From: Halostella limicola
Lineage (GTDB): Archaea > Halobacteriota > Halobacteria > Halobacteriales > Natronoarchaeaceae
Direction of reading: 5' to 3'
NCBI RefSeq assembly: GCF_003675875.1
Contig: NZ_RCDI01000007.1
Span: forward strand, 1 to 64,000
Length of the DNA: 64,000 nucleotides
The notes under the pieces were generated by a model that worked only from the letters and a program-made list of their open reading frames with translations, was not told the origin of the DNA and did no database searches. Position 1 is the stretch's first letter; every line of letters begins with the position of its first letter. Below are positions 1 through 44,017 of this stretch, one piece after another. The translations under genes and the position numbers were made by a program.

Positions 1-3
1 ATT

Positions 4-4908: not shown

Positions 4909-4930
4909 GTCCATGCAACGTCGGCGGCGA

Positions 4931-4940: not shown

Positions 4941-5116
4941 GGCGCGACCGTTGCCGTCGGTTGTCCGGCGTTGCGCCGAATAGTACCGCCCTTCGCGGGA
5001 CACGACGACGCGCTTGCGCCGGGCGCTTGACTAAGACCGCCCTAGGTCGGGGTGAACCGCGCCTTACTCGCGCAACGTCGCCCGAAGTTTAACACCCGGC
5101 GTCGTGACCGACGAGT

Positions 5117-6357: not shown

Positions 6358-6397
6358 CTCCGGCGGCGCGTCGGCACGCCCGGTCAGTTCGCCCGAG

Positions 6398-6760: not shown

Positions 6761-6783
6761 GGTCGGACGTTCCCGCGTGACGC

Positions 6784-6792
6784 GGATAAGCC
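6784..6792 (-). promoter_or_regulatory. TATA-like box of the 6398-6760 gene
   Basis: The minus strand reads GGCTTATCC at the distance expected for leaderless initiation at the ATG at 6760. Confidence 0.5.
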
Positions 6793-6926
6793 TGAATCCC
6801 AGGTCGGTTCCGAGTGGTTGCCAGATGTCGTCGTCGTACTGCACTCGTGCGGTTATCAGTACTATGACACGGCCTAACATACTTCTCTCTGCTCCACTTA
6901 CGCCACGACACCCTCGGGTGGGGACA

Positions 6927-22286: not shown

Positions 22287-22428
22287 GCCGCAGCGACGCA
22301 ATCTCGTGTTACCACGTGACAATCCCGACCGTACCGGTCGGATGGATAGCACGAGGACCGATCATGACTGCAAAACGCGCGAGCCGCCCTGCGAGACGCT
22401 TCGCGGCGGCTCCGGACGAACGATAACG

Positions 22429-24246
22429 ATGTGTGGAATCACGGCTCACGTCGGAACGGACGAGACCGTCGAAGAACTGCTCGTCGGCCTGGAGAACCTG
22501 GAGTACCGGGGATACGACTCGGCCGGCGTCGCGGTGAAAAACGGCTGCGGGATCGAGGTGTGCAAACGCCGCGGCGAGATCTCGCAGCTCAAACAGCAGA
22601 TCCGGGCCGAGATCACCGGCTCGGGGGTCGGCATCGGCCACACCCGCTGGAGCACCCACGGCCCGCCGACCGACACCAACGCGCACCCCCACACCGACTG
22701 CACCGGCGAGGTCGCGGTCGTGCACAACGGCATCATCGAGAACCACGACGACCTGAGAGCCCGACTGGAGAAGCGCGGGCACGCGTTCGAGAGCGACACC
22801 GACACCGAGGTCGTCCCTCACCTCGTCGAGGAGTACCGCGAGGACGGCCTCTCCCCCGAGGCGGCCTTCCGCCAGGCGGTCCAGCAACTCGACGGGAGCT
22901 ACGCGGTCGCGATGATCGACGAGGACGACGACGCGGTGTACGCCACCCGCAGTGGGTCGCCGCTGGTGATGGGCGTTGACGACGGGAAGCGGTTCCTCGC
23001 GAGCGACGCGCCCGCGTTCCTCGAGTTCACCGACCGCGTCATCTATCTGGAGGACGGCGACGTCGCCGTGCTCACCGAGGACGGTCACCGGATCACGGAC
23101 ATCGACGGAGCGCCCGTCGAGCGGCCCCCGGAAACCGTCGACTGGGTCGCGGAGGACGCTGAGAAGGGCGGCTACGACCACTACATGCTCAAGGAGATCC
23201 ACGAGCAACCGACGGCGCTGTCCCAGACGCTCCAGGGCCGGACCAGGTCCGGCCACGACGAGGTGAACCTGGAGGACTTCGGTCCGGGGACGTTCGCCGA
23301 CGTCTCGGACGTTCAGTTCGTCGCCTGCGGCACGTCATATCACGCCGCGCTGTACGCCACGCGCTTCCTCTCCAGCCGCGGGATACAGGCGCAGGCGTTC
23401 CGCGCCGGCGAGTACGCGACCAGCCCCGCGCCGATCCGGGACGAAACGCTCGTCGTGGGCGTGACCCAGAGCGGTGAGACGGCGGATACGCTGGACTCGC
23501 TCCGCAACGCGGACGCACGCGGCGCGCGCACACTCGCGTTGACGAACGTCGTCGGAAGCACCGCGGCGCGCGAGGCCGACGACGCCCTGTTCATCCGCGC
23601 AGGGCCGGAGATAGGCGTCGCGGCAACGAAGACGTTCTCCTCGCAGATCGCGACGCTCGCGCTGCTCGGGGAGCGGATCGTGCGGGACGTGAGCGGCCTC
23701 GCGAGCGACGGGATCGCGGACCTGCTCGGCTCGCTCGAGACGCTGGACCGCGACGTCCAGCGCGTGATCGACGAGAGCCGCGCGGAGCGGATCGCGTCGA
23801 CGTACCTCGACGAGGAGTCGTACTTCTTCATCGGCCGCGACATCGCGTACCCGGTCGCGCTGGAGGGCGCGCTGAAGTTCAAGGAGATCACCTACGAGCA
23901 CGCCGAGGGGTTCGCCGCGGGCGAGCTGAAACACGGCCCGCTCGCGCTCGTGACGCCGGAGACGCCCGTGTTCGCGGTGTTCACCGGCCGCCACGACGAG
24001 AAGACGCTGAACAACGTCGAGCAGGTGCAGGCCCGCGGCGCGCCGGTGATCGCCGTCGCTGGGGAGTCCCACGAGGAGGTCCACAAGGTCGCCGACGAGG
24101 TGCTGACCTACCCCGACGCCGCGCCCGAGGTCGCCGCCGTGCTCGCGAACGTCCAGCTCCAGTTGCTGTCGTACCACGTCGCCGACCGGCTGGAACGGGC
24201 GATCGACAAGCCGCGGAACCTCGCAAAGAGCGTGACCGTCAAATGA
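22429..24246 (+). CDS. glmS: Glutamine-fructose-6-phosphate aminotransferase (GlmS)
   Basis: A 605-residue GlmS that converts fructose-6-phosphate and glutamine to glucosamine-6-phosphate, the entry to UDP-GlcNAc. The start at 22429 exposes the catalytic Cys2 (MCGITAHVGTDE) of the class II glutamine amidotransferase domain, followed by ENLEYRGYDSAGVA and GHTRWSTHGPPTDTNAHPH. Two SIS isomerase domains follow (CGTSYHAALYATRF near residue 302; FFIGRDIAYPVALEGALKFKE near 465) and the family terminus DKPRNLAKSVTV. It sits at the left end of the glycan island and supplies precursor for the diacetamido-sugar operon. Confidence 0.96.
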   Translation: MCGITAHVGTDETVEELLVGLENLEYRGYDSAGVAVKNGCGIEVCKRRGEISQLKQQIRAEITGSGVGIGHTRWSTHGPPTDTNAHPHTDCTGEVAVVHNGIIENHDDLRARLEKRGHAFESDTDTEVVPHLVEEYREDGLSPEAAFRQAVQQLDGSYAVAMIDEDDDAVYATRSGSPLVMGVDDGKRFLASDAPAFLEFTDRVIYLEDGDVAVLTEDGHRITDIDGAPVERPPETVDWVAEDAEKGGYDHYMLKEIHEQPTALSQTLQGRTRSGHDEVNLEDFGPGTFADVSDVQFVACGTSYHAALYATRFLSSRGIQAQAFRAGEYATSPAPIRDETLVVGVTQSGETADTLDSLRNADARGARTLALTNVVGSTAAREADDALFIRAGPEIGVAATKTFSSQIATLALLGERIVRDVSGLASDGIADLLGSLETLDRDVQRVIDESRAERIASTYLDEESYFFIGRDIAYPVALEGALKFKEITYEHAEGFAAGELKHGPLALVTPETPVFAVFTGRHDEKTLNNVEQVQARGAPVIAVAGESHEEVHKVADEVLTYPDAAPEVAAVLANVQLQLLSYHVADRLERAIDKPRNLAKSVTVK

Positions 24247-24280: not shown

Positions 24281-24523
24281 ATGAGCGGGATCGATCCGAG
24301 CGAGGTGCAGATCGACTGGCACACGGACGGCTCCGACGAGCAGGTCGCAGTCGGCATCGACGCCGGCGACGTGAAGCTCGCGGTCGCGTTCCCGGTGTCC
24401 GCGTCGAAGTCGGAACTGGAGACGGTGCTGTCCGAGCGCGACCGCGAACTCGAACACTACTTCGAGGCGCTGGCCCGGGTCCGCGACCGGAGCGAGTTCC
24501 CGCCGCTCGAGCGACGGGAATGA
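24281..24523 (+). CDS. Small acidic hypothetical protein downstream of glmS
   Basis: An 80-residue acidic protein starting 34 bases after glmS and probably in the same transcript. It has an alternating strand pattern (VAVGIDAGDVKLAVAFPV) followed by a helix (SELETVLSERDRELEHYFEALARV). I do not recognise it. The position suggests a link to glmS expression or amino-sugar metabolism, which cannot be shown here. Confidence 0.6.
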   Translation: MSGIDPSEVQIDWHTDGSDEQVAVGIDAGDVKLAVAFPVSASKSELETVLSERDRELEHYFEALARVRDRSEFPPLERRE

Positions 24524-24610: not shown

Positions 24611-26227
24611 ATGGAACGCCGAAGATACCTACGCCTCCTCGGAGCGGGCGCGATCGGAGCGGTCGCCGGCTGCCAGTCGTCTCCGGACGACGAGAGCGAC
24701 GGCACCGCGACGCGTGACCCCGACCGGACCACGTCCGCGCCCGCGACGGAACGAGAGGTAGAGGAGGAACGGGTCGAGAACCTCGAAGAGGAGTTCGACA
24801 CGGTCGTCAACGTGGTCGAGGACCTCGACTGCGACCCGTCCGGGGAGCGCCCCTGCAACGACGCCGTCGTCGAGGCCGCTGGGGACCGGACGCTGTTCCG
24901 GTTCCCCGAGGGGACGTACCAGTTCAGCGGCTACACGCCGCTGCGCGAGCTCGACCGAGTCGGCATCGTCGGCGACGGCGACGTGACGTTCCGGCCCCCG
25001 CGCGGCTTCAACGACAAACTCCTCGACATCGAGGCGAGCTGGGCCGTCTGTCGCAACTTCGATATCGACATCCGAGAGACGAACACGACGGCCGGCCTCC
25101 GCGTGGTGTCGGACGAGGGGTTCCACGTCGAGGACATCGAGTACATCGGACGGGGGATCCACCGCGACGACAGCGTCGTCGACGGGCTCTTCCCGGTCGT
25201 TCGGGACCCCGACGGCGTCGGCGTCGTGAAGAACCTCGTCTCGAAGAAAGGGTCCGCGTGGGGACACTACGGCGACGGCCGGGCCGGGATCTACGTGGGG
25301 AGCATGAACCGCGGCACGGTCAAGGTCGTCGACTGCCAGTTAGAAGAGTTCGGCGGTCCGGGCATCTACGCGACCGCGACGCCCGGGAACGTACAGGTGA
25401 TCGGCGGTACCTACCGCAACAACAACGTCGCCTCGATCCGCATCGGCGGCGAAGGGAGCTTCGTCGACGGCGCCTTCGTCGAAGCGAGTCTGGAGAAGTA
25501 CACCGGACCGCGCACACGCGAGGACCAGGCGTTCCGCCTGCGGGGCGTCGTCATCAACCAGAAGTCCGCGTACGTCGACAAGCCGCCCGGCGCAGAGATC
25601 CGCAACACGGAGATCCGGATCCGGGACGTACCGAGTCCGGGCGGCGGGATCGCGGTGTTCGGACCCGGGAAAACGGCGACGGTCCGCGACACCGTCGTCT
25701 CGAACGACAACGACGGCGCACCGGCCGTCTACCGCGAGGGACAGCAGGCGTTCGACCACCACCCGGCGTCCGAGGGCGAACGCTGGCTCCACATGGAGAA
25801 CGTCACCGTGGAGGGCTCGGCCCGGGACGGCACCGCGGTCGTCGTCAGGGACGCGCCGAACTCGATCCTGCGTAACTGCGACATCCAGGCCGATGGCGAG
25901 CAGCGCGACGGTGTCAAGTTCGTGACCTCGCCCACTTCGATGATCGACGGGGGGAGCGTGCTGACGACGGGGTTCCCGGTGAGCATCGAGAGCGGCCCGG
26001 TCCCCGACGACCACGACATCCTCCTGTACCTCCAGAACGGTCCGGAACTCGAATCGACCGGCGTCGCAGGCTCGGAGGAGAAACTCCTCGTCGACAACGT
26101 GATCACGGGGCCGATCGACTTCCGTGTCATCTCCGCGTTCGACACCACGACCGACCAGGTACGTATATCGATCACGGACGTCGGCACGGACGGCGTGTAC
26201 GGTAGGGTGCTCTCCGAAGAGGAGTGA
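24611..26227 (+). CDS. Tat-exported beta-helix lipoprotein
   Basis: A 538-residue secreted protein. The N-terminus has a twin-arginine signal (MERRRYLRLLGAG) and a lipobox ending at Cys20 (GAVAGC), so it is predicted to be lipid-anchored outside the cell. After a disordered acidic linker, residues about 60-480 form a right-handed parallel beta-helix like pectate lyases, with repeating strand-turn units (GTVKVVDCQLEEFGGPGIYATATPG and similar). It is paralogous to the next gene at 26553. It could cleave, modify or bind surface polysaccharide; no catalytic residues can be assigned by eye. Confidence 0.82.
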   Translation: MERRRYLRLLGAGAIGAVAGCQSSPDDESDGTATRDPDRTTSAPATEREVEEERVENLEEEFDTVVNVVEDLDCDPSGERPCNDAVVEAAGDRTLFRFPEGTYQFSGYTPLRELDRVGIVGDGDVTFRPPRGFNDKLLDIEASWAVCRNFDIDIRETNTTAGLRVVSDEGFHVEDIEYIGRGIHRDDSVVDGLFPVVRDPDGVGVVKNLVSKKGSAWGHYGDGRAGIYVGSMNRGTVKVVDCQLEEFGGPGIYATATPGNVQVIGGTYRNNNVASIRIGGEGSFVDGAFVEASLEKYTGPRTREDQAFRLRGVVINQKSAYVDKPPGAEIRNTEIRIRDVPSPGGGIAVFGPGKTATVRDTVVSNDNDGAPAVYREGQQAFDHHPASEGERWLHMENVTVEGSARDGTAVVVRDAPNSILRNCDIQADGEQRDGVKFVTSPTSMIDGGSVLTTGFPVSIESGPVPDDHDILLYLQNGPELESTGVAGSEEKLLVDNVITGPIDFRVISAFDTTTDQVRISITDVGTDGVYGRVLSEEE

Positions 26228-26552
26228 GCCAGCGTTAACCACCGCTTACCGTGGCAAAACAGCCGTTCTCAATGCGCGTCGGGACGGGAGAGAACCCGGC
26301 CTCGGGGCCCCGATTTCTCCCGGTAAGCTTCCCCAATCGAGCGGTAATAGCTCATTTCCCGAACCCGAAACAGCGCATCGGAGGGCGTGTTCCCTCGACT
26401 GCGTATAAGATTCTTTTACGGCTGAGTAATTGAATCCTACCGGGGTTGGTAAGTACCCGGTAAGTTAGAACTGTTAATACGGCCACTTTGCGGTGTGGTG
26501 TGGGCGGTAACTGGTGAAAATGGTTATTCAAGTAACCCCCAGTTAACCGGCC
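26228..26552. other. Intergenic region between the two beta-helix genes
   Basis: This 325-base gap contains several short GGTAA/GTTAA-type repeats between 26435 and 26545 and a TATA-like GGTTATTC at about 26522, roughly 31 bases before the next ATG. The second gene thus appears to have its own promoter. No gene is visible. Confidence 0.5.
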
Positions 26553-29324
26553 ATGGCAGAGCACCAAAACGACGGGCCTTCCGGGAAGGAAGGAGTTACT
26601 GGCACCGATGATGGGAAAGACGGCCTTATCGACCGGCGTTCATACCTCAAACTGAGCGGCGCGGCCGCGGCGAGCACAGTCGTCGCCGGCGTCGGATCCG
26701 CGTCGGAGACGGTACACGGTATCGGGTTCGACCGCGTGGTCAACATCGTCGACGACTACGGCGCTGACCCGAACGGGAACGAGCCGATCGACTCGGCGCT
26801 CGACAGTGCGATCAGCGACGGGACGCTCGTCCAGTTCCCCGAGGGCCGGTATCAGTTCGGCTCCGTCGATAAGGTCCTCACCGGCATGCAGAGCATCGGG
26901 TTCCAGGGCCTCGGCGACGTGAAGTGGGTCCCCCCGACGGGCGCGCCCGGCGACAAGCCGATCTTCAACGTCGGCGGCCGCAGCAACTCTGTTAACCACT
27001 TCTTACTGGAGGATATCGACATCGACATCCGGGCCGACAACACCACGGCCGGCTTCAAGCTCCTCGTTCAGGACGGCTTCCACGTGGAGAACGTCGAGTT
27101 CATCGGCCGCGGCGACTCCAACGACTATCAGGAGGGCGGCGGACCGAACATCGTCGACTGTTTCATCACGCGCATCGCCAGCAGCAGCGGCGAGGGCGTC
27201 CTCAAGAACGTCGTCGCGAAGAAGGGCTCGCACTGGGCCCGGTACGGCGGCGGCCGCGCGCCCATCTGGGCCGGCCCCGGCTTCAAGGGGACGCTCAAGG
27301 TCATCGACTGTCACTTCGAGGAGTTCGGCGGGTCCGGCATCTACGCGACCGCCATTCCCGGTAAGATACAGATCGAAGGCGGCGTGTTCCGAAACAACAA
27401 CGGGCAGGCCATGCGCTTCGGGGGCGACGGCAGCTACGTCGACGGCGCGCTGATCGAGATCGACGCCAGCAAGTACTCCGGCAAGCGCGAGTCCCAGTAC
27501 GAGGACCGCGCGTTCAAGCACCGCGGCATCGTCATCAACCAGAAGTCCGACTACATCGACAAGGCGCCCGGCGCCGAGATCCGGAACTGTGACATCGTCA
27601 TCAACAACCACCCGAACCCTGGCCCGGCGATCACCGCCCGCGGCCCGGCGAAGACGGTGAACGTCAAGAACACGCGCATCCAGGTCAACGCGAACGTCCC
27701 CGCCGTGCTCCGCGTCGGCCAGAAGGACTTCGGCCACCACCCCGCGTCCGGCACCCCGCGCTGGCTCCGCATGGAGAACGTCAGCATCACGGGCGACGCC
27801 GCCGGCGGCAACGCCGTGGTCGCACACGACGCACCCAACTCGGTCATCAAGAACTGCTGCATCCAGCAGACTGGTTCCAGCCGGTCGGGCGTGAAGCTGA
27901 ACAACGCCGACGGGAGCCGCGTCGAGGACAGCACGATCAACGTCAGCGGCGACGCCGTCGACTTCCAGAGCAGTTCCGTCGAGACCACCAACGTCGAACG
28001 GTCGGGCACGTGCCCGGTTCCCTCGGCCGAGGGTGATTCGGGAAACGGGAGTGAGACGGACGACTCGACGAACACCGAGGACTCCACGGACCAGCCCCAG
28101 GCCGACTACGAGGTCCGCATCGCCGGCAAGGGCACGGCGACGAACTACGAGTTCACCGCCAGCGACGGGCTTCGCGCCGCCGACAACTCCCTCGAAACGT
28201 GGGACACGATCAGCGGCACCTCCGCGTCCGGCTGGGTCACCGACTCGACCAACGAGGACGCCTTCGCCGTCGTCGGCAAAGTGACCGAATTCACCTTCGT
28301 CGAGGGCGACGCCGACGTCTACGTCGACGGCCAGCTCGTCGACGACCCCGTCGCCGCTACCGGGTCATCCGACTCCACGGACGGCTCGGGTGGCTCCACC
28401 GACGACACCTCCGACTCGACCAACGATACGTCCGACTCGACGGACGACACGTCGCAGGACCAGACGACCCAGCGCGAGCTCCGTATCGTCGGCAAGGGTA
28501 CGGCAACGAACTACGAGTTCACCGTCAGTGACACGCTCGAAAGCGCCGACGGCACCCTCGAGACGTGGGACGCCATCGACGGCACCACCGCGTCCGGCTG
28601 GGTCACCGACTCGACCAACGAGGACGCTTTCGCCTTCGTGGGCGAGATCACCGAATTCGCCTTCGTCGAGGGCGACGCCGACGTCTACGTCGACGGACAG
28701 CTCGTCGACGACCCCGTCGTCGCCACCCAGTCCACGGACGGCTCGGGCGACTCCACCGACGACACGTCGAGCCAGCCGACCGAGTACGAGCTCCGCATCG
28801 TCGGCAAGGGAACGTCGACGAACTACGAGTTCACCACCAGCGAGGACCTGCAGGTGGCCAACGACTCCCTCGAGACGTGGGACACCATCGACGGCACCAC
28901 CGCGTCCGGCTGGGTCACCGAGTCCAGTCACGAGGACGCGTTCACCGTCGTCGGCGAGGTCACCGAGTTCGCCTTCGTCGAGGGCGACGCCGACGTCTAC
29001 GTCGACGGCCAGCTCGTCGACGACCCCGTCGTCGCCACCCAGTCCGACACCTCCGACGGCAGCACCGGCGACACGAGCCTGCCCAACACCATCGTCATCG
29101 ACAACTCGACGGTGTCCGGGCAGAGCACGTACTCGTTCGGCGTGAGCGGCGACATAGAGAAGGACTCGAGCGCCGGCAGCGTCGAGGACGACGACGTCGT
29201 CAGCGGCAGTACCGTCGAAGGACAGGTCGAGGGCGACAAGGACGCCTACCGGTTCTCCGGCGACATCACGACGTTCAACCTCGACGGCTCCGCTGCGGTC
29301 TACTTCGAGGAAGACAATGCGTAA
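26553..29324 (+). CDS. Tat-exported beta-helix protein with four C-terminal surface repeats
   Basis: A 923-residue secreted protein. It has a twin-arginine signal (DRRSYLKLSGAAAAS, about residues 28-42) without a lipobox. A beta-helix domain follows (about 60-490), homologous to 24611-26227 (EEFGGSGIYATAIPGKIQIEGG matches the paralogue closely). The C-terminal part has three near-identical 87-residue domains (517-603, 640-726, 744-830), joined by Asp/Ser/Thr-rich linkers, and a divergent fourth (about 845-921). The linkers resemble O-glycosylated spacers. The domains are probably for attachment or glycan binding, and the helix may act on polysaccharide. A co-directional 71-residue protein follows. 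Confidence 0.83.
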   Translation: MAEHQNDGPSGKEGVTGTDDGKDGLIDRRSYLKLSGAAAASTVVAGVGSASETVHGIGFDRVVNIVDDYGADPNGNEPIDSALDSAISDGTLVQFPEGRYQFGSVDKVLTGMQSIGFQGLGDVKWVPPTGAPGDKPIFNVGGRSNSVNHFLLEDIDIDIRADNTTAGFKLLVQDGFHVENVEFIGRGDSNDYQEGGGPNIVDCFITRIASSSGEGVLKNVVAKKGSHWARYGGGRAPIWAGPGFKGTLKVIDCHFEEFGGSGIYATAIPGKIQIEGGVFRNNNGQAMRFGGDGSYVDGALIEIDASKYSGKRESQYEDRAFKHRGIVINQKSDYIDKAPGAEIRNCDIVINNHPNPGPAITARGPAKTVNVKNTRIQVNANVPAVLRVGQKDFGHHPASGTPRWLRMENVSITGDAAGGNAVVAHDAPNSVIKNCCIQQTGSSRSGVKLNNADGSRVEDSTINVSGDAVDFQSSSVETTNVERSGTCPVPSAEGDSGNGSETDDSTNTEDSTDQPQADYEVRIAGKGTATNYEFTASDGLRAADNSLETWDTISGTSASGWVTDSTNEDAFAVVGKVTEFTFVEGDADVYVDGQLVDDPVAATGSSDSTDGSGGSTDDTSDSTNDTSDSTDDTSQDQTTQRELRIVGKGTATNYEFTVSDTLESADGTLETWDAIDGTTASGWVTDSTNEDAFAFVGEITEFAFVEGDADVYVDGQLVDDPVVATQSTDGSGDSTDDTSSQPTEYELRIVGKGTSTNYEFTTSEDLQVANDSLETWDTIDGTTASGWVTESSHEDAFTVVGEVTEFAFVEGDADVYVDGQLVDDPVVATQSDTSDGSTGDTSLPNTIVIDNSTVSGQSTYSFGVSGDIEKDSSAGSVEDDDVVSGSTVEGQVEGDKDAYRFSGDITTFNLDGSAAVYFEEDNA
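28101..29321 (+). repeat. Three near-identical coding repeats plus one divergent copy
   Basis: The units lie at 28101-28361, 28470-28730 and 28782-29042, with a divergent fourth at about 29086-29321. Each encodes a domain with the order GKGTxTNYEF, LETWDxIxGT, SGWVT, EDAF and FVEGDADVYVDGQ. The DNA itself is highly similar between copies 2 and 3, which points to recent duplication or gene conversion. Confidence 0.85.
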
Positions 29325-29372
29325 CGACGTCCCCGCTCGCCGCTCGGCCCTCCGCGCGGAGGTGGTGGCGTA

Positions 29373-29588
29373 ATGTCCTCGGTCTCCCGCACCGAGTGGG
29401 CGCAGGTCTCGGACGACCCCGACTTAGAGGAGGACCTCGGCTACGAGATGATCGACCTGGAGATAATCCAGGCGAACAACAAGGCCGAGCAGTACATGTT
29501 CCTCCCCCAGGACGAGGAGATGCTGACCGAGGAGGCCTTCATCGTGGCCGAACCGGACTCCGTGGTCGACATCAACTCCCAGATCTAA
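29373..29588 (+). CDS. Small acidic protein downstream of the beta-helix gene
   Basis: A 71-residue acidic protein beginning 49 bases after the beta-helix gene and likely co-transcribed. It has no signal peptide or cysteine. The sequence WAQVSDDPDLEEDLGYEMIDLEIIQ and ending VVDINSQI is not one I recognise. It may be a cytoplasmic accessory of the exported protein. Confidence 0.6.
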   Translation: MSSVSRTEWAQVSDDPDLEEDLGYEMIDLEIIQANNKAEQYMFLPQDEEMLTEEAFIVAEPDSVVDINSQI

Positions 29589-29904: not shown

Positions 29905-30045
29905 ATGGATAGCGGCGTCGGTGAACACGAGTGCGCTGCGCGGCGACGAAGACCGACCGATCCGGAGCCCGCGACCGTCCGGCGGACGACCGACCGCTCG
30001 ACCGCGGCGCGAACCGAGAGGGGTGGTGACGGGTCGTGGCCGTGA
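29905..30045 (+). CDS. Possible 46-residue leader ORF of the flippase gene
   Basis: An ATG at 29905 opens a 46-residue frame (starting MDSGVGEHECAARRRRP) whose TGA overlaps a GTG start of the flippase (GTGA at 30042). The peptide is Arg-rich and without a recognisable domain, so its product may not matter. The stop/start overlap and the promoter element 39 bases upstream suggest translational coupling. Confidence 0.3.
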   Translation: MDSGVGEHECAARRRRPTDPEPATVRRTTDRSTAARTERGGDGSWP

Positions 30046-31556
30046 AAGACAGCGACATCTCGACGTTGCTGTCGAGCGCCAGCCTCGTGTTCGCCGGCGC
30101 CGTCCTCGGGTCGGCGTCGAAGCTCATCGAGCGGATCATCGTCGCCCGGACGCTCTCGCCGGAGGCCTACGGCGAGGTGAGCATCGCTCTCACGGTGCTG
30201 ACGTTCAGCGTCACGATGGCGATGGTGGGGTTCAACCAGGGCGTCCCCCGCTACGTCTCGCGGTTCGACGACGAGAAGGACGTCCGCGGCGTCTGGGTGA
30301 CGGGGCTGCTCGTTCCGGGACTGGTCAGCCTCCTCGTCGTGGCGGGGCTGGTGCTCAACGCGGAGTGGATCGTCAGCCGGTTCTTCGAGGGGATGGGGTC
30401 GGTGGAACTGCTGATCCTGTTCGTCCTCGCGATCCCCTTCACCGTCGGGTCGCTGGTCGGGATCGGAACGATCCGCGGACTCGAGAACACGATCTACAAG
30501 ACGTACGCGCAGGACCTGTTCCACCCCGGCGTGCGGATCGCCCTGCTCGTCGCCCTGCTCGGCGTCGGGATGGGGATCGACGCCGTCGGCTACGCGTACC
30601 TCCTCACCGCTATCGGCTTCTTCGTCTTCACGCACGTCCTGTTGAACCGGCTCATACCGCTGGTCGGCGAATTCGAGACCCACGTGACGGAGATGGTGAA
30701 GTTCTCCGCGCCGCTGGTCATCTCGACCGTGCTCGCGCGCCTGTTGACGAAGACGGACACGCTGATGATGGGGTACTTCCGCACGTCGTTCGAGGTCGGG
30801 CAGTACAGCGCGGCGTTCCCGCTCGCGAACGGGATGGTGATCATCCTCTCGGCGTTCGGGTTCATCTACCTCCCGCTGGCGTCCCGCCTCGACGCCAACG
30901 GCGAGCGCGAGGAGATCGACGCGATCTACAAGCTCACGACGAAGTGGATCTTCGTCATCACCTTCCCGCTTTTCGTCACGCTCCTGCTGTTCCCGGCGGA
31001 CGTCCTCGGCGCCATCTTCGGGGCGGAGTACCGGCAGGCGGCGCTGCCGCTCGCCATCCTCTCGCTCGGCTTCTTCACCAACGCCGCGGGCGGGCGCAAC
31101 CGGGAGACGCTGTCGGCGCTCGGCTACACGGGCTTCATCCTGCTCACGAACGCCATCGCGTTCGCGCTCAACTTCGCGCTGAACCTCCTGCTCATCCCGC
31201 AGTACGGCGCTGAGGGCGCGGCGGTGGCGTCGGCGGCCTCGTACGTGACCCTGAACCTGACCGTCATCGTCATCCTCGCGGCGAAGTTCGACATCTCGCC
31301 GTTCTCCCCGTGGTCCGTCCGGACGTTCGTCGTCCTCCCGGCCGCCGTCCTCCCGGTCGCCGCGCTCCTCTCGCAGTGGGTGTCGCTGAGCGCGCTGACG
31401 CTGCTGCCGTTCATGGCCGTCGTCGGGATCGCCTCCGTCTACCTCGCCGCCGTCACCGGCTGTCTCCAGCCGGAGGACGAGATCCCTCTCGACCTCGTCG
31501 AAGATCGGCTCGGGATCACGCTCCCGTACCTGCGGCGGTTCATCCCCGACGAGTGA
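30036..31556 (+). CDS. Polysaccharide flippase (Wzx/MATE-like)
   Basis: A 506-residue membrane protein with about 14 hydrophobic segments. The N-terminus (SSASLVFAGAVLGSASKLIERIIVARTLSPEAYGEVSIA) and the LTKTDTLMMGYFRTSFEVGQYSAAFPLA segment match the polysaccharide biosynthesis/export family. It would move lipid-linked oligosaccharides or polysaccharide repeats across the membrane. The start is GTG at 30036 or GTG at 30042. Its location beside glycan-modifying enzymes supports the role. Confidence 0.9.
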   Translation: MAVKDSDISTLLSSASLVFAGAVLGSASKLIERIIVARTLSPEAYGEVSIALTVLTFSVTMAMVGFNQGVPRYVSRFDDEKDVRGVWVTGLLVPGLVSLLVVAGLVLNAEWIVSRFFEGMGSVELLILFVLAIPFTVGSLVGIGTIRGLENTIYKTYAQDLFHPGVRIALLVALLGVGMGIDAVGYAYLLTAIGFFVFTHVLLNRLIPLVGEFETHVTEMVKFSAPLVISTVLARLLTKTDTLMMGYFRTSFEVGQYSAAFPLANGMVIILSAFGFIYLPLASRLDANGEREEIDAIYKLTTKWIFVITFPLFVTLLLFPADVLGAIFGAEYRQAALPLAILSLGFFTNAAGGRNRETLSALGYTGFILLTNAIAFALNFALNLLLIPQYGAEGAAVASAASYVTLNLTVIVILAAKFDISPFSPWSVRTFVVLPAAVLPVAALLSQWVSLSALTLLPFMAVVGIASVYLAAVTGCLQPEDEIPLDLVEDRLGITLPYLRRFIPDE

Positions 31557-31662: not shown

Positions 31663-33429
31663 ATGACTGGTGTGGCTGGCGGCCGTATCACTGGCGAGAG
31701 CCTGGACGAGATGGTCGACTCGATGTGCCACGAGGAGTGGTACGGCAGAGAGCAGTTCGAGGACGGCCGCTACGGTCTCGGATTACTGTATCACGGCGAG
31801 AAAGACCCCGGCGGACACACGGTCTGGCGGGACGACGGCAAGGCCGGGGTGATCCACGGTGCCGTATCGAACCTGGACGACCTCGGGATGAGCGAGGGCG
31901 ATCTCTTCGAAGCGCTGCTCGACCGCCCGGCCTCCGTCCTGCGAGAGGTCGACGGCCCCTTCGTGATCGCCGCCGTCGATCCCGACGCGGACGCGGCAGT
32001 CGTGGCGACGGACAAGATCGGAAGCCGGCAGTGTTACTACTCCACCGAGGACGGCTTCCTGTTCGGCTCCGAGGTGAAGTCGGTTCTCACGCAACTGGGC
32101 GAGGCGACCGTCGACGAGCAGGGGGTCAGCGACCTGCTGACGATCGGTCACATGTGGGGCGAGAAGACGCTCGTCGAGGAGGTCAGCGCGGTCCCGCCGG
32201 GGACGGTGCTCGAGTACCGCGACGGCAACGTCACCAGGGAGCGCTACTGGGAGTTCGACTTCGGCGAGTCGACGAGCGACCAGTACGTCGAGGAGATGGT
32301 GCGGAAGTACCGGGCGACCATCGACGACATGTCGAAGACGATGGACGGGACCGTCGGGCTGTGGCTCTCGGGCGGCCTCGACAGCCGGTCGATGGCCTCG
32401 GAACTGCGGCGCAACTCCGACTCCCTGGTGACGTTCACGTACGACGCCAACCCGGCCGGCGGCGGCAACCCCGAACTCGCGCGCCGCGTCGCCGGAAACC
32501 TCGGCGTCGAGAACGTCGAGATCGAGCTGACGCCGGAGCACTTCCTCGACACCGTCGAGAAGAGCGTCGGCATCGTCGACGGGATGGTCGCGTGGAACAT
32601 GTTCCTGAACCTCTCCTCCACGTACAACGTGCCGCCCGAGCGCGCCGACCTCCTGCTCGAGGCGTCGGGCCAGGGCGGCCTGCTCGGCTACGACGTGTGG
32701 GAGCCGTACCTCCAGCGGAGCGAGTCCCCAGAGGAGGCGCTGTACCAGAGCGACCACCTGACCGACAAGGAGACGGCCCAGCGCCTCCTCGACTTCGACG
32801 TCGATCCGCTCGACTCCTACCGGGACGAGGTCGCGAGAAGCACCGAGAGTTCCTTCCGGAACCGGGTGCTCGATAGCTACTACCGCAACTTCTACTCGCG
32901 CGGCGACTTCGCGAGCAACCGGATCGCACAGACCCAGTTCGGGACGCGCGTCCCCTTCGCCCACGGCGAGTTCCTCGACCACATCACGGACATGCCGTCG
33001 AAGTACCGGACCCGGGCGGTGCCGTTCACGGGCGGCAAGGTGCCGTACGGCACGGCCCCGCTGAAGCTCGAACTCCAGCGCGCGCTGAACCACGGCCTCG
33101 AAGACATCCCCTACGAGCGGACGAAGGTCGCCCCGTCGCGGCCGCTGTGGCAACACGCCGCCGGGTTCGTTATCTCGAAGTCCTACGACCGCCTCAAGTC
33201 CAAGACGACCTACGGCGGGAAGACGATGATCGGGGAGTGGTACCGCAACCACGACGAGTTCCGCGAGTACCTCGACGGCCTCATCGCCGACGCTGCCGAC
33301 CGGCCCTTCTTCGACGAGGACGTCCTCCGCGAGCTCCAGTACGACCTCCTGCGCGCCGAGGGGTCGATGAGCCCGCTCGCGTCGGTCACCACCCTGGAGA
33401 TCTGGCTCCAGGAGCACGTCGACGCCTGA
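31663..33429 (+). CDS. Asparagine-synthase-like amidotransferase, glutaminase Cys missing
   Basis: A 588-residue protein with a class II amidotransferase-like N-terminus (about 1-200) and an asparagine synthase domain with the ATP PP-loop WLSGGLDSRSMA (about 228-239). The sequence begins MTGVAGG rather than the MCG-x needed for glutamine hydrolysis, so the N-terminal domain probably cannot release ammonia. The PP-loop site looks intact, so it may adenylate a carboxylate and use free ammonia or another amine. In glycan clusters such enzymes can amidate uronic acids (as proposed for WbpS). TATA-like TTATATTTATA is at about 31623. Confidence 0.83.
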   Translation: MTGVAGGRITGESLDEMVDSMCHEEWYGREQFEDGRYGLGLLYHGEKDPGGHTVWRDDGKAGVIHGAVSNLDDLGMSEGDLFEALLDRPASVLREVDGPFVIAAVDPDADAAVVATDKIGSRQCYYSTEDGFLFGSEVKSVLTQLGEATVDEQGVSDLLTIGHMWGEKTLVEEVSAVPPGTVLEYRDGNVTRERYWEFDFGESTSDQYVEEMVRKYRATIDDMSKTMDGTVGLWLSGGLDSRSMASELRRNSDSLVTFTYDANPAGGGNPELARRVAGNLGVENVEIELTPEHFLDTVEKSVGIVDGMVAWNMFLNLSSTYNVPPERADLLLEASGQGGLLGYDVWEPYLQRSESPEEALYQSDHLTDKETAQRLLDFDVDPLDSYRDEVARSTESSFRNRVLDSYYRNFYSRGDFASNRIAQTQFGTRVPFAHGEFLDHITDMPSKYRTRAVPFTGGKVPYGTAPLKLELQRALNHGLEDIPYERTKVAPSRPLWQHAAGFVISKSYDRLKSKTTYGGKTMIGEWYRNHDEFREYLDGLIADAADRPFFDEDVLRELQYDLLRAEGSMSPLASVTTLEIWLQEHVDA

Positions 33430-34662: not shown

Positions 34663-36075
34663 TTATTCGACGAGGTAGCCCAGATCGGAGAGCTGGTCCT
34701 TCATCTCGTCGGTGAACTCGCCCTCCGTTCGGCCCGACTCGATCGGCTGGCCGTCCGTTTCGAGCCACTCGGAAAGTTCCGCGTCCATGTCGGCGGCGAC
34801 GTCCAGATGCTCGTCGGTCGCGTCGCGCTCCTCGTCTGGGAGCGCGTACAGCGCGCTCCCGTCATCCCCCCGGACGTACTTGAACTCGGGCGAGCGGAGC
34901 GCGTGGACGTGGCCGGTGCGGTAGGCGGACGCGTCGAAGGCGGGGTTGTTGCCGGCGATCCGTTCGAGGTTGTTCGCCGGGCGCTCCGCGCCGCGCTGGA
35001 CGATGCTGCGGTCCCGCGTCTCCTCGCGCAGGTCGATCCCCTGGAGGCTGTCGGCGTCCGCGCCGACCGACTCGAGGACCGTCCGCATCACGTCGGCGTG
35101 CTGGACCATCTCGCCGTCGTAGTCCTCGACGCCGTCCAGCCCGTGCACGACGAGCGGGACGTGCGTCACGGCGTCGTCGACGACGACCTGGTGTGCGAGC
35201 ATCCCCTGCTCGCCGAACAGTTCGCCGTGGTCCGCCGTCACGACGAAGACGGTGTCGCCGACGTCGTGCGACCGGACGAAGTCGAACAGGTCGCCGACGA
35301 GTTCGTCCGTGTGAGCGATCTCGGCGTCGTAGAGGGCCTTGATCGCGGCCCACTCGGCGTCGTCGAACTCGCAGCCGTCGGCGACGTGTTCGAACAGGTT
35401 CTCGTGGTGGTCGAAGGCGATCGCCTGGGCCTCGTCCGCGGACATCGGCAGGTCCTCCGTGAACGCCTCGCGGTACTGCTTCGGCGGCGAGTAGGGCCGG
35501 TGCGGGCCGCCGTGGTGGAGGTAGAGGAAGAAGGGGTCGTCCTCGTCGGCGAACTCGTCGACCCACTGCTTCGCCACCTCGTTCATCATGAACCCGAAGT
35601 TGTGCTTGCGGGCGTCGAGCGTCAGGCCGCCGCCGTTCGACCGGAGGTTTCGGAGGTAGCGCAACGCAGTGCGCACGTCGACGAGGTCGGGGAGCGTCGA
35701 CTTGCTGACCCAGGCGAAGCGGTCGAAGCCGCGGTCGAGGGCCGTCGCGGAACTGAGATGGGAGTTGGGGGAGAGACAGGCGGTGCGGTAGCCGGCGTCC
35801 CGCAGGAGTTCGGGCACCGTCGGCAGGGCGTCGGGGACGGCCTCGCTCCCCATCCCGACGCCGTGGTGGGAGGGGTAGGTCCCGGTGAGGATCGACGCGC
35901 TCGACGTGAGCGTCCAGACGCCGTGCGAGAAGCAGCCGTCGAACGCCGCCCCGTCCGAGCGGTTCGCTATCCGCCGGAGGTTCGGCGTCGTGTCGCGGTC
36001 GTGACCCCCCATCGACGTGTGGTCCGCCCGCGTGCTCTCCATCGTAACCCAGACGACGTTTGGCAAGGAACTCAT
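34663..36075 (-). CDS. Sulfatase-fold enzyme with Thr nucleophile
   Basis: A 470-residue sulfatase/phosphatase-fold enzyme. The N-terminus carries the metal site NVVWVTMESTRADHTSMGG. The position of the catalytic Cys of sulfatases is taken by Thr in WTLTSSASILTGTYPSHHG, as in phosphoglycerol transferases and related enzymes. HHGGPHRPY (about 187-195), VFVVTADHGELFGEQG (about 279-294) and the C-terminal DQLSDLGYLVE are also present. It lacks an export signal. It probably transfers or removes a phosphate or sulfate substituent of glycans. The promoter region reads TATAACTATC, only partly like the island element. Confidence 0.82.
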   Translation of the reverse strand: MSSLPNVVWVTMESTRADHTSMGGHDRDTTPNLRRIANRSDGAAFDGCFSHGVWTLTSSASILTGTYPSHHGVGMGSEAVPDALPTVPELLRDAGYRTACLSPNSHLSSATALDRGFDRFAWVSKSTLPDLVDVRTALRYLRNLRSNGGGLTLDARKHNFGFMMNEVAKQWVDEFADEDDPFFLYLHHGGPHRPYSPPKQYREAFTEDLPMSADEAQAIAFDHHENLFEHVADGCEFDDAEWAAIKALYDAEIAHTDELVGDLFDFVRSHDVGDTVFVVTADHGELFGEQGMLAHQVVVDDAVTHVPLVVHGLDGVEDYDGEMVQHADVMRTVLESVGADADSLQGIDLREETRDRSIVQRGAERPANNLERIAGNNPAFDASAYRTGHVHALRSPEFKYVRGDDGSALYALPDEERDATDEHLDVAADMDAELSEWLETDGQPIESGRTEGEFTDEMKDQLSDLGYLVE

Positions 36076-36164: not shown

Positions 36165-37979
36165 TCAGTTCTCGTCCTCGGAGACGTAGTAGAGTTCCAC
36201 GTCGCCGTTGGAGCTCACCCTGTCGACGCGGGGCTGGGCTTCGAGCGACTCGAACCCGGCCCGGTCGAACCGGAGGCCGTCGTACGCGACCGTCTCGCGC
36301 TGCCTGTCGTACTGGGAGAGCAGCAGGTAGCCCGTGTCTGCTTCGTACTGACTCGGCAGGTCAGACAGCGACTGGTCCTCGACCGACGCCTTCAGGTCCT
36401 CACCCCGCTCCGTGCCGTAGATGGCGTCGCTGTACCGGTAGTGGCCGCCGCGGAGCCCGGCGATAGTGAGCGACTCGTTGCGGTCCTCGAACGCCGTCTG
36501 GTACCCGGACATCTCCGTCTCGGTCACGTGCTGTGTCGGCTTGTACATGAACGGCGACGGGAACACCGTCACGAGCGCGAGCGGGAGCAGGATGACGAAA
36601 AGCACTGCGACGGCCGTCGTCACCGTCCCGTTCCCGCTCCGGTCGAATAGGCCGGCGGTCGCCCTGGCGAGCGCGAACGAGCCCAGGATGGAGCCGACGA
36701 GCATGATGAACGCGAGTTCGCGGAAGTACAGCGACGAGACGTCGCCCGCGAAGAAGATCCCGGTCAACACGAACACCGGGACGAGGCCGACGCTCAGGTA
36801 GATGACGACCGACGGCACGTCGGACTGGACGTCGTCGTACCGCCCGAAGAACGTCGCCAGCACGATCAGCCCCGCGAGCACGGCGTAAACCGTACTCACG
36901 AGGAAGATCCTCGCGAATATCTCCGGCAGGCTCACGCCGATGGCCGTGAGCGACGCGCCCTGGGCGGCCACCGCGGTCCCCGCTGTCGGCGGAGTCCCCT
37001 GAACGTACATCGCGAGCGTCCCGCCGATCTGGAGCACCAGATCGCGGACCACCGCCTTCTGCAGCACCCAGGCGAAGAAGATGACGCCGACGATGAAAGT
37101 CTGAGCGTAGATCGGTCGGTGGATCTTGATGCGGTTGTGCGACGACCGGACGCGATAGAGGAACTGGACGGCCGAGACGGCAACGAGCAGGACGAGGACG
37201 TTCACCATCGCGAGCGGGTGGTAGAGCACGGCCGCCGCCGCCACCAGCGTGATGAGTACGGTCGTCGGGGCGACGAGCGACCCTTCGCCGTCGGCCGACG
37301 GCGCGAGCGCGTACTTCAGGACGAGAAAGAGCAACAGGGCAGAAAACAGCGTCGTCTGGCTGAAGGGGTGCGCGTGCGGGTGCGTGCTAAGGTTGTTGAT
37401 CGGGAGGAGGAGAAACGCCGAGAAGGCCGCGAGCGCCGCCGCCATCGCGCTCGGCGTGACGAGACGCACCGTGAGCGGGACGAACAGGAGCACGACCAGC
37501 GAGAGCAGCAGCACCACGACCATGAGCGACTGTCTGAGCGGGAACCCGGAGACGGCGCTCATCGCCACCGAGAAGAGGTGAAGCGCCGGATACAGCAGCA
37601 TCTCCGGCTCGATCGCCCCGTCGGCGATGTCTTTCACCCACCCGAGGTGCGTGAGCGCGTCGGCCGTGCCGTAGAAGTAGTAGCCCCTGACCAGCGGCAG
37701 GCCGAGGATCGCGGTGACCGCTCCGCCGCCGAGCGCGAGGGCGACGCCCCGGAGATATCCGGGCGATCGGAGGAGCGCGACGATCGCTGCGGCGACGAGC
37801 GCGACGCCGACGCCCGCCCAGAACGCCGCCGGGGTCGCCGCGTAGATCGACACCTCGTAGCCCGTCGGCGGTTCGTTCCACGCCGCGACCACCGCGCCGG
37901 CGAGGGCGAGGTAGCCGACGACGAGCGCTAGTTTCTCGCCTACTCGATTATCGGTAGTGGGTCCCGTATCACGTTGCAT
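36165..37979 (-). CDS. Polytopic membrane protein, possibly GT-C type
   Basis: A 604-residue membrane protein with about 12 hydrophobic segments and a C-terminal soluble domain of about 110 residues (after PLALVTVFPSPFMY). An extracytoplasmic loop after the third segment reads YYFYGTADALTHLGWVKDIADG. An acidic/His loop in this place is reminiscent of GT-C glycosyltransferases, but no clear catalytic signature is visible, so the assignment is tentative. It is the first gene after the CATAACAAAG element at 38024 and lies among glycan genes, fitting a role in lipid-linked sugar transfer or polymerisation. Confidence 0.6.
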   Translation of the reverse strand: MQRDTGPTTDNRVGEKLALVVGYLALAGAVVAAWNEPPTGYEVSIYAATPAAFWAGVGVALVAAAIVALLRSPGYLRGVALALGGGAVTAILGLPLVRGYYFYGTADALTHLGWVKDIADGAIEPEMLLYPALHLFSVAMSAVSGFPLRQSLMVVVLLLSLVVLLFVPLTVRLVTPSAMAAALAAFSAFLLLPINNLSTHPHAHPFSQTTLFSALLLFLVLKYALAPSADGEGSLVAPTTVLITLVAAAAVLYHPLAMVNVLVLLVAVSAVQFLYRVRSSHNRIKIHRPIYAQTFIVGVIFFAWVLQKAVVRDLVLQIGGTLAMYVQGTPPTAGTAVAAQGASLTAIGVSLPEIFARIFLVSTVYAVLAGLIVLATFFGRYDDVQSDVPSVVIYLSVGLVPVFVLTGIFFAGDVSSLYFRELAFIMLVGSILGSFALARATAGLFDRSGNGTVTTAVAVLFVILLPLALVTVFPSPFMYKPTQHVTETEMSGYQTAFEDRNESLTIAGLRGGHYRYSDAIYGTERGEDLKASVEDQSLSDLPSQYEADTGYLLLSQYDRQRETVAYDGLRFDRAGFESLEAQPRVDRVSSNGDVELYYVSEDEN

Positions 37980-38086: not shown

Positions 38087-39133
38087 TCAGACCACCGACC
38101 GGTACACGTCGCCGAGGCGGTCGCTCGCCGTCGACCAGGCGTACTCCTCGGTGACCGTCTCGTAGTTCGTCTCTCCCATTCCTCTGGCGGCATCGTGGTC
38201 CTCGACCAGTTCGGCGAGGGCCGCTTCGAGGCCGTCCACGTCGCCGGGGGAGACGATCCGGCCGTTTTCCTCGTCGACGACCTCGGGGATGCTCCCCACG
38301 TCGGTCGTGACGACGGCGTTGCCGCCCGCCATCCCTTCGAGGAGGGCGATCGGGAGCCCCTCGGCGTAGGTGGGGAGGGCGTAGATCGACGCCTCTTCGA
38401 GCAGCTCCTGCTTTCGCTCCTCCGAGACGAACCCGAGGTACTCCGCGTCCTCGTACGACTCCGAGAGCGACTCGGCGTGGTCCGACAGGGGACCGCGGCC
38501 GGCAATAGACACCCGGAACGAGGGCGAGCCGTTGCGCTTGAGCCGGTCGACGGCGTCGGTCAGCTCGACGATCCCCTTCCGCTCGATGTGGTTGGAGATG
38601 AACACCAGATGTGGCTCGTCGTGGTCGAACGACGGCGAGAAGTCGGTCGCGTCGACGGCGTTGGGCAGGACGACGAGCTTCTCCGTGTCGGCGCGGTGCT
38701 CGAGCACCTCCCGCCAGTACTCCGAGAGGACGACGATCCGGTCGCTGGCGCCGAAGACGATCCGCTGGAGCGCGGCGACGGCGTAGGAGTCCGTGAGGAC
38801 GAACTCGTCGAACGAGGACCCGTGGACGTGCAACACGACCGGCCGACGCCAGACGTAGGCGGCGATGAGCACGTACAGCGAGTTCCGGTAGAACGAGAAC
38901 CGGTGGGAGGTGTGCACGTGGACGACGTCGGGACGGCGGCGGAACGGGAACCCGAGCACGGTGACGAGCGACAACAGCGCCGCGCGGACGTATTCGAGCG
39001 TCCCGCCCTCGACTTCCGTGTGGGTGTCGTAGAGGCGCGTGTCTATCTCGTCCAGGTGGCGCTGCTGTTCGGCGATGTACTGGGCGATCCCCCCGCCGCG
39101 CCGACTGGCGGGGCCGACGATGAGCACGTCCAT
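38087..39133 (-). CDS. Glycosyltransferase family 4
   Basis: A 348-residue GT-B glycosyltransferase. The N-terminal loop GPASRRGGGIAQYIAEQ and DVVHVHTSHR mark the acceptor domain. FISNHIERKGIVEL (about 201-214) starts the donor domain, and YAEGLPIALLEGMAGGNAVV (about 263-282) contains the E-x7-E retaining motif. It transfers a sugar from a nucleotide donor to a growing glycan at the cytoplasmic side. It has its own TATA-like TTATTTAATAAG at about 39164-39175 and not the island element. Confidence 0.93.
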   Translation of the reverse strand: MDVLIVGPASRRGGGIAQYIAEQQRHLDEIDTRLYDTHTEVEGGTLEYVRAALLSLVTVLGFPFRRRPDVVHVHTSHRFSFYRNSLYVLIAAYVWRRPVVLHVHGSSFDEFVLTDSYAVAALQRIVFGASDRIVVLSEYWREVLEHRADTEKLVVLPNAVDATDFSPSFDHDEPHLVFISNHIERKGIVELTDAVDRLKRNGSPSFRVSIAGRGPLSDHAESLSESYEDAEYLGFVSEERKQELLEEASIYALPTYAEGLPIALLEGMAGGNAVVTTDVGSIPEVVDEENGRIVSPGDVDGLEAALAELVEDHDAARGMGETNYETVTEEYAWSTASDRLGDVYRSVV

Positions 39134-43096: not shown

Positions 43097-44017
43097 TTAT
43101 AACTTTGTTATCCTCTCTCTACCCCGCTGGCTGGCTTCCCGGGAGATCTCGAGTCGCCGGTAGAGATCCCCGGGCGGACCGACCCACGCGTCGAGGTCGA
43201 GCGCCCGCTCGATCAGGCGGAAGTAGAGACGGCGGTAGCCGGGAAACTCGTCCTCGTTGAAGTATCGAGGGTGCCACAGCACCGTCATCACCGCCTCGTT
43301 TCTGGCCGCCTCGATCAGGAGGTCCTCGCAGACCTCGAACGCGCGGTCGAAGTCCTTTCCGGGGTCGGGAAGCGCCTCCTCCATCGCCGTCAGGGGAAAG
43401 ACGACGAAGTCGTCGTCGAACGGGCGGAGCGGGTCGTACCCGTGCTGAAAGCCGTACTCGACGGACGATCCGAGGCTCGCGTCGTACCGGAGGCCGATAT
43501 CCGCGTGGTACCGCCAGGTCTCGGGCACGTCGAGGTGGAGGTAGTGCTGCCGCCCGCCGACGACCGGATGACCGAGCAGGTCCTCCAGCACGTTCTTCTC
43601 GTAGCCCAGTCGGTCCTTGTCGCCGTAGGAACCGTACGAGCCGTGGAGGCCGATCTCCCAGCCGTCGGCGTCGAGCCGGCGGATGACGTCCGCGATCTTC
43701 GGTGATTCGACATCGTACCCGCCGAGGTGCTGGACCCAGCGCGACGGCCGCAGCCACTCCCGGGGGCTCGTCTCCCTGAACAGGTGGGGTTCGTTCAGGA
43801 AGTAGAAGGCGGACCGGACGCCCAGCTCCGACTCCAGCGACCGTATCTCGTCGAACTGCCAGTAGGGGTTGTTCCCGGGGAGCGCCGTCTTCAGATGGTA
43901 CAGCGGCCGCTCCTGAACCGCGTAGTACAGCGACTGGTACGTCTTGAACGGCCTGTCGACGTCGTGGGTCAGACAAAGGGCGAACGAGTCGTCCTCGAAC
44001 GGGTTGTCGTCAGGCAT
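43097..44017 (-). CDS. Polysaccharide deacetylase-like protein
   Basis: A 306-residue NodB-fold protein. The divergent metal motif LTHDVDRPFK near residue 14 (in place of TFDDG), GWEIGLHGSYGSYGDKDRLG (about 145-164) with the catalytic-site His, and MTVLWHPRYFNEDEFPGYR (about 243-261) are recognisable. It would remove N-acetyl groups from a glycan or lipid-linked sugar. The start at 44017 overlaps the end of the 2-epimerase gene by 8 bases, so it belongs to the same operon. Its stop codon region contains the promoter element of the next gene. Confidence 0.83.
   Translation of the reverse strand: MPDDNPFEDDSFALCLTHDVDRPFKTYQSLYYAVQERPLYHLKTALPGNNPYWQFDEIRSLESELGVRSAFYFLNEPHLFRETSPREWLRPSRWVQHLGGYDVESPKIADVIRRLDADGWEIGLHGSYGSYGDKDRLGYEKNVLEDLLGHPVVGGRQHYLHLDVPETWRYHADIGLRYDASLGSSVEYGFQHGYDPLRPFDDDFVVFPLTAMEEALPDPGKDFDRAFEVCEDLLIEAARNEAVMTVLWHPRYFNEDEFPGYRRLYFRLIERALDLDAWVGPPGDLYRRLEISREASQRGRERITKL
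43103..43112 (-). promoter_or_regulatory. GATAACAAAG element inside the deacetylase 3' end
   Basis: The minus strand reads GATAACAAAG, beginning 41 bases before the ATG at 43071 and overlapping the last codons of the deacetylase gene. It may give the FemAB-like gene an internal promoter within the operon. Confidence 0.55.

Follow-up and report, generated by a model that had tools for sequence, protein, structure and literature searches.

A lipobox-bearing and a repeat-bearing beta-helix protein encoded side by side in a haloarchaeal glycan locus

Two neighbouring genes of Halostella limicola encode homologous right-handed beta-helix proteins that differ in what could hold them at the cell surface: one, P1, carries a Tat signal with a lipobox, and the other, P2, carries a Tat signal without a lipobox and ends in four repeat domains. 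The observation reaches far beyond the window (the whole stretch of 64,000 nucleotides analysed here). None of the 95 helix proteins compared has both a lipobox and repeats, and pairs made of one protein of each kind have originated repeatedly. The reading that I favour, and to which I give an even chance, is that P1 and P2 are Tat-exported enzymes, one being lipid-anchored and the other held by its repeats, and that they remodel an exopolysaccharide, probably one with uronate, which the genes around them produce. The new elements are a repeat family that the searched libraries do not contain, the mutual exclusion of this repeat and the lipobox, the emergence of the pair more than once, and a small partner protein.

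The features on which the comparison of the two proteins turns are the following.

24611–26227, + strand: P1, predicted Tat-exported lipobox beta-helix protein, 538 aa, without repeat domains (sequence, PF13229)
24611–24673, + strand: Tat signal and lipobox of P1, RRRYLRLLGAGAIGAVAGC, Cys21 (sequence; lipidation predicted)
26553–29324, + strand: P2, 923 aa, predicted Tat-exported beta-helix protein that ends in four domains and lacks a lipobox
26634–26705, + strand: Tat signal of P2, RRSYLKLSGAAAASTVVAGVGSAS, no lipobox (sequence)
26703–28022, + strand: beta-helix domain of P2, residues 51–490 (AlphaFold2 model, VIA match)

Anchoring of P1, P2 and their relatives

On inspection, the N-terminus of P1 (RRRYLRLLGAGAIGAVAGC) contains a Tat motif and then a lipobox with Cys21 (RRRYL...VAGC), followed by a linker and the helix. 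Haloarchaeal Tat lipoproteins are recognised by a lipobox cysteine behind the Tat motif, and P1 is predicted to be one of them. In the N-terminus of P2 (DRRSYLKLSGAAAASTVVAGVGSASE) the Tat motif is present and the lipobox absent. The other end of P2 (...AAVYFEEDNA) has no transmembrane segment by hydropathy and lacks the PGF-CTERM signal of archaeosortase substrates, and a PGF motif is found in the last 40 residues of none of 58 array proteins. Both reading frames lie exactly where the first-pass annotation had placed them, and the difference in anchoring that it described holds. It had also called the genes tandem duplicates. Their homology is borne out (43% identity across 480 columns, E 2e-119), while the duplication itself is older than the species, since P1 joins a lipobox helix of Salinigranum marinum in the helix tree and P2 joins array helices of S. 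marinum. The closest relatives of P1 (54% identity) and P2 (65%) are on an S. marinum plasmid (9643–17240 of locus L174). That relatives on the plasmid of another genus are nearer than those of the own genus suggests plasmid–plasmid exchange.

A census of 95 non-redundant helix proteins counted 52 with repeats only, 28 with a lipobox only, 15 with neither feature and none with both, which gives a Fisher p of 1.6e-13 when relatedness is ignored. A test restricted to related pairs yielded nine independent pairs, with a mean of 5.4 in the expected direction and none against (median p 0.0625, short of significance). The census drew on loci with a high helix-model score, 20 loci partly picked for two close matches, five loci of the window's own genus, 30 named loci and two plasmid records; rows below 200 bits were dropped, as were proteins duplicated in their last 120 residues, the replicon's other pair was left uncounted, and one of the lipobox calls is doubtful (locus L157, GLAC). 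Genes in the loci were called by a simple script and their starts are possibly off. The simplest reading of the census is that the array does the job of the lipid, keeping the protein at the surface, because lipobox and repeats are mutually exclusive and because repeat-bearing proteins from other helix families, and some with no helix, likewise have Tat signals and no lipobox.

The first-pass annotation had staked its proposal on the two genes occurring together in other genomes, and they do: of 26 neighbouring helix pairs (at most 4 kb apart), 22 combine a lipobox protein with an array protein, two are array/array, one is neither/neither and one is an apparent split gene. The lipobox gene comes first in 14 of the one-of-each pairs (same strand) and the array gene in six, the remaining two being on opposite strands. 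Haloferax mediterranei, too, has a lipobox helix and an array helix on pHME505 (locus L173). At locus L201 (6399–9424), the site of the apparent split gene, which scores as a neither/array pair, an array gene is seemingly split into frames of 273 and 735 aa beside an intact lipobox helix. Two ancient orthologous classes, one anchored and one arrayed, are ruled out by the helix tree and the AU test. On the tree of 94 helices, the lipobox label needs 12 changes, at least nine of which are forced by well-supported branches, and a single clade of all lipobox helices is rejected (AU p 1.6e-7). The lipobox class is not monophyletic, and the anchored-plus-arrayed arrangement has therefore arisen or been rebuilt several times.

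At E 1e-20, the helix model has matches in 253 of 391 genomes in the class (66 of 86 genera), in a search that scored only four candidates per genome and in which absence is weak evidence. Among 72,556 plasmid records, tblastn detected relatives of P2 in 77; the 40 of these 77 that were listed are all haloarchaeal, and the annotated matches among the 40 are mostly hypothetical, right-handed beta-helix or GH28-related. Nothing on the pair was found in the open-access library that was consulted for literature.

Folds of the helix and of the repeat

PF13229 matches P1 at 27.2 bits and the P2 helix alone at 27.5 bits (cut-off 25.9), and NCBIfam gives no useful match for the pair; a sub-cut-off match of P2 to a viral-nucleoprotein Pfam model (E 0.014) is put down to chance. 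The AlphaFold2 model of the P2 helix, built from 48 sequences, has a pLDDT of 94.5 and a pTM of 0.93. Foldseek matches it, at E 1e-5 to 1e-3, to PfbA (first), an exo-polygalacturonase, tailspikes, AlgE4 and RbmB. With VIA, which re-aligns Foldseek's own matches so that families outside those lists stay possible, the A-modules of AlgE6 (Z 31.8, rmsd 2.7, 338 aligned) and AlgE4 (Z 31.6, rmsd 2.6–2.7, about 337 aligned) come out on top, followed by tailspikes (about 29–30), the RbmB lyase (28.5) and PL6 lyases (27.5); PfbA, titled a surface adhesin, is also among these structural matches. The Pfam matches of both proteins and the model of the P2 helix place P1 and P2 in the pectate-lyase-like right-handed beta-helix superfamily.

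Classification as an alginate (mannuronan C5-) epimerase by fold alone was rejected. The DPH[DEQ] motif occurs in 0 of 94 family helices, and HHalign against AlgE4 aligns 101 N-terminal columns only, at a probability of 33%; because DPHD/E is missing in all of these relatives, the pair is not filed as an epimerase. No histidine column is kept in more than 39 of the 94 helices, and no lysine column in more than 45. In GH28 polygalacturonases the GHG and RIK motifs are conserved; here they are found in 7 and 5 of 94, respectively. The columns that are kept (P2 numbering, out of 94) are N281 and R288 (94 each), N282 and S294 (91), Y264 and D72 (90), D158 (87), D304 (84), and Y231 and R324 (80). 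They are common to lipobox and array members, R288 being present in 28/28 and 52/52, respectively. According to the secondary-structure strings of the helix model, which were used for this purpose instead of 3D coordinates, Y264 and R288 lie on successive turns of the same sheet and R324 starts the strand of the next turn. This placement suggests a groove with Tyr/Arg chemistry, like that of arginine-using lyases. Alginate epimerases use the histidine of DPHD/E together with a tyrosine, as stated in a passage of PMC4444821, and a passage of PMC8824271 gives Y149, H154, D152 and D178 as the corresponding residues of AlgE7.

The C-terminal part of P2 is organized as follows.

28101–28355, + strand: repeat d1, residues 517–601
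28356–28466, + strand: linker d1–d2, 37 residues, 89% D/S/T/G
28467–28721, + strand: repeat d2, residues 639–723, the copy modelled (all-beta, pLDDT 95.9)
28722–28778, + strand: linker d2–d3, 19 residues, 79% D/S/T/G
28779–29033, + strand: repeat d3, residues 743–827
29034–29084, + strand: linker d3–d4, 17 residues, 76% D/S/T/G
29085–29321, + strand: repeat d4, residues 843–923, divergent member of the same family

Pairwise identities among d1, d2 and d3 are 66/85, 64/85 and 67/85 (75–79%), and d4 has 20–24 identities out of 87 with the others. The three alike domains and divergent fourth of the first-pass annotation are therefore there, near-identical being a slightly strong word for 75–79%, and so are its Asp/Ser/Thr-rich linkers (76–89% D/S/T/G). 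The domain, which it had found unfamiliar, matches no Pfam or NCBIfam model, neither a known family nor a described one of unrelated function; its best match among PDB sequences has an E-value of 0.67. The model obtained from 28 aligned copies is all-beta (pTM 0.86), and Foldseek retrieves nothing for it from the PDB at E 0.001 or better. The best VIA match, which is also the highest carbohydrate-binding one, is 2cwr, the chitin-binding domain of Pyrococcus furiosus (Z 5.1). As modelled, the repeat resembles archaeal chitin-binding domains and other carbohydrate-binding beta-sandwiches in being all-beta; a Z of 5, however, is a level that unrelated sandwiches reach, and the resemblance may be only that of a common sandwich.

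Within the class, 283 of 391 genomes (75 of 86 genera) contain a match to the repeat model, and each of its 36 matches across 294 genomes of the phylum falls inside the window's own order. The repeat thus appears to be a widespread haloarchaeal extracellular module, unmodelled in both general family libraries searched. It is also found behind a von Willebrand A domain (locus L078) and in Tat proteins without a recognised helix (loci L006 and L007). One PHROG of unknown function matches the repetitive C-terminus of P2 (E 1.8e-4), a link to phages that was judged weak.

The glycan locus and the small acidic gene

The contig carrying the window is 153,260 bp long and its final 7,673 bases match its start at 7,673/7,673 positions (window 1–7673 = 145588–153260). 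This exact terminal repeat identifies a circular replicon of 145,587 bp, in a genome of 4.1 Mb. A second, distant pair is found on the same replicon at 100672–104719. It consists of a lipobox helix (LAAC; locus L009, 16672–18069) and a 797-aa helix with three repeats (locus L003, 1486–3879). The window's own pair is surrounded by the following genes.

22306–24246, + strand: GlmS, glutamine--fructose-6-phosphate transaminase
29373–29588, + strand: acidic protein of only 71 aa, from a conserved family with linkage to array genes
30036–31556, + strand: polysaccharide flippase, about 12 TM segments
31663–33429, + strand: asparagine-synthase-like protein
34663–36075, − strand: sulfatase, above Pfam cut-off
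36165–37979, − strand: membrane protein with 13 TM segments, unmatched in Pfam and NCBIfam, candidate polymerase
38087–39133, − strand: glycosyltransferase group 1
44010–45074, − strand: WecB, UDP-GlcNAc 2-epimerase, TIGR00236 above cut-off
45077–46156, − strand: glycosyltransferase family 2
46159–47820, − strand: nucleotide-sugar dehydrogenase, TIGR03026 above cut-off

The locus also holds an aminotransferase, a hexapeptide acetyltransferase and, at 33541, a sulfatase-like gene that scores below the Pfam cut-off. Between GlmS and P1 there is an 80-aa ORF (24281–24523) for which NCBIfam gives no match and Pfam none that reaches the cut-off; its homologues adjoin GlmS in loci L041 and L042. For the dehydrogenase at 46159 the best equivalog is the archaeal UDP-ManNAc dehydrogenase, below the cut-off of that model. 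WecB and a UDP-ManNAc-type dehydrogenase constitute the route to a sugar of the N-acetylmannosaminuronic type. Since WecB and a nucleotide-sugar dehydrogenase are both encoded here, the polymer of the locus probably contains uronic acid, and the flippase and the 13-TM protein imply that a polymer is exported. For Haloarcula hispanica, a passage of PMC9943897 documents an acidic exopolysaccharide that contains glucuronate.

The glycan setting is not peculiar to the window. At least one homologue of 16 glycan genes of the window was found at 18 of 20 loci of the pair family versus 4 of 20 control loci (p 1.7e-5), and at least two homologues at 13 versus 2 loci (20 each, p 8e-4). The author placed the control loci at other sites in 20 genomes, and 18 of these genomes contain a test locus as well.

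The small acidic ORF starts 48 bases after P2 and encodes 19 D/E versus 2 K/R. That it is spurious is ruled out by its distribution and linkage, and the first-pass annotation was right to count it as a gene: the family, usually in single copy, is present in 116 of 391 genomes in the class (32 of 86 genera), and most of its sampled members follow helix or array genes. Twenty of its loci were sampled at about every third rank of the family list, those already covered being swapped for the next. In 13 of them a helix or array gene lies immediately upstream on the same strand, within 100 nt in 12 cases and with repeats in the upstream gene in 11, and in several loci the called genes are separated by 0–5 nt. 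The other seven have no helix or array neighbour, several of them lying amid glycan genes. In S. marinum the unit of array gene and small gene occurs twice in succession; next to the second pair of the H. limicola replicon, a small acidic gene is not adjacent within the stretch seen. Because the copy in the window has neither a signal nor a TM segment, a cytoplasmic role on behalf of the array protein is likely: the small protein, made right behind P2, would probably assist P2 while it is still inside the cell, one such task being to escort it to Tat export.

Possible functions of the pair

If the favoured reading is correct, the helices would act as lyases or C5-epimerases, hydrolysis being less likely. 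P1 would be fixed to the membrane by its lipid and act on the chain as it leaves the cell. P2, predicted to be unlipidated, would be retained in the polysaccharide matrix or the S-layer by its four putative beta-sandwich repeats on flexible acidic linkers and would act on the finished polymer, the repeats substituting for the lipid.

There is a precedent for such a division of labour in alginate synthesis, where, according to passages of PMC4444821, AlgG is part of the export complex and AlgE is secreted and carries substrate-binding R-modules. The likeness extends to the helix fold (AlgE6 A-module Z 31.8), to an architecture in which the helix is followed by one to several C-terminal modules, and, by the same source, to the presence of one cell-held enzyme beside secreted ones. 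The differences are as clear. The DPHD/E motif is missing here in 94/94 family helices; the R-modules are Ca-binding RTX beta-rolls, whereas the domains of P2 are modelled as all-beta and have 85 residues; GGxGxD, the sign of the Ca-binding nonapeptide, does not occur in P2 and is found behind the helix in 9 of 58 array proteins. Moreover, the partner presumed to stay on the cell is itself a member of the helix family and a predicted Tat lipoprotein, and the hosts are archaea. The pair can be regarded as kin to pectate-lyase-like polysaccharide enzymes with binding modules, working in the manner of the AlgG/AlgE division while lying outside those families.

Two other systems share the fold. 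The tailspikes of phages Sf6, CBA120 (TSP3) and HK620 do so with Z 25–30; tailspikes are trimeric virion proteins, whereas the P1 and P2 genes sit in a cellular glycan locus, and a phage origin is ruled out, tblastn with P2 finding no match in 50,697 phage records. RbmB, the exopolysaccharide lyase of Vibrio cholerae, matches with Z 28.5; it is a single protein, not known to have an anchoring partner or repeats. The title of PMC11637428 describes RbmB as a lyase with biofilm-disrupting activity on the species' own polysaccharide.

The first-pass annotation had left polysaccharide processing and adhesion side by side. Processing has gained from the fold, from the glycan setting (18/20 versus 4/20) and from the uronate-sugar genes, while adhesion keeps the PfbA match. 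That PfbA comes first in Foldseek counts against the favoured reading, as do the missing AlgE motif, the lack of a well-kept histidine or lysine column, the unconserved GH28 motifs, the short HHalign match to AlgE4, a repeat Z that does not exceed 5.1, the two array/array pairs and the one neither/neither pair among the 26, and the median p of 0.0625 in the related-pairs test. The helices might instead be non-catalytic, glycan-binding adhesins or matrix organisers, P1 tethering polysaccharide to the membrane and P2 cross-linking it through its repeats. None of the catalytic sets of the superfamily that were looked for is conserved, an adhesin is among the top structural matches, and repeats on acidic linkers resemble display or cross-linking modules. 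However, N281, R288 and Y264, on helix strands, are kept in 90–94 of 94 helices and in both members of the pair, which is beyond what a scaffold would be expected to need, and most of the closest folds that have been solved with a ligand belong to enzymes. I consider this alternative unlikely, if one to be reckoned with.

Two further alternatives accept catalysis and change the substrate. That the pair trims or transfers the N-glycans of S-layer proteins, and does not act on free exopolysaccharide, agrees with the fact that, in haloarchaea, N-glycosylation genes can reside in the same cluster as other glycan genes, an example being the aglB-containing cluster of H. hispanica, which includes an acidic-exopolysaccharide gene according to a passage of PMC9943897; it is distinctly improbable all the same, since the long open groove of the helix suits long chains and the flippase with its adjoining 13-TM protein suggests a polymer. 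The other idea is that the pair degrades foreign polysaccharide for food, as a two-stage depolymerase with P1 on the cell and P2 in the environment. The fold is indeed common to polysaccharide lyases, exo-polygalacturonases and tailspike depolymerases, and sulfatases lie nearby, but the genes around the pair are those of biosynthesis (GlmS, WecB, nucleotide-sugar dehydrogenase, flippase, glycosyltransferases), the conserved linkage is to homologues of glycan-synthesis genes, and none of the scanned genes of the window was recognised as serving uptake or catabolism; such a role is improbable as well.

Should the remodelling of the locus's own exopolysaccharide be the correct reading, one of two sister enzymes would be fixed in the matrix or S-layer by an unmodelled beta-sandwich repeat. 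It is conceivable, though I hold it only tentatively and think it rather less than probable, that haloarchaea have repeatedly evolved a two-compartment remodelling of their own acidic polysaccharide, in which a class-specific repeat replaces the lipid and a small acidic protein of the cytoplasm, dedicated to the arrayed partner, takes part. How haloarchaeal enzymes are placed between membrane, S-layer and matrix is poorly known, and a module that excludes the lipobox in these helix proteins gives a direct handle on this question; the pair is a natural experiment repeated across several lineages. The system also points to where haloarchaeal polysaccharides may be altered once they have been made, and it supplies candidates for salt-tolerant lyases or epimerases.

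A glycoproteomics table of PMC8241124 lists HVO_2081 of Haloferax volcanii as a 'pectin lyase domain protein'. Further along the window, between 56001 and 60000, G+C drops from about 0.67 to 0.60 and 0.54, which may mark an insertion, and a copper-containing nitrite reductase (TIGR02376 above cut-off) is encoded on the same replicon at 61589–62656.
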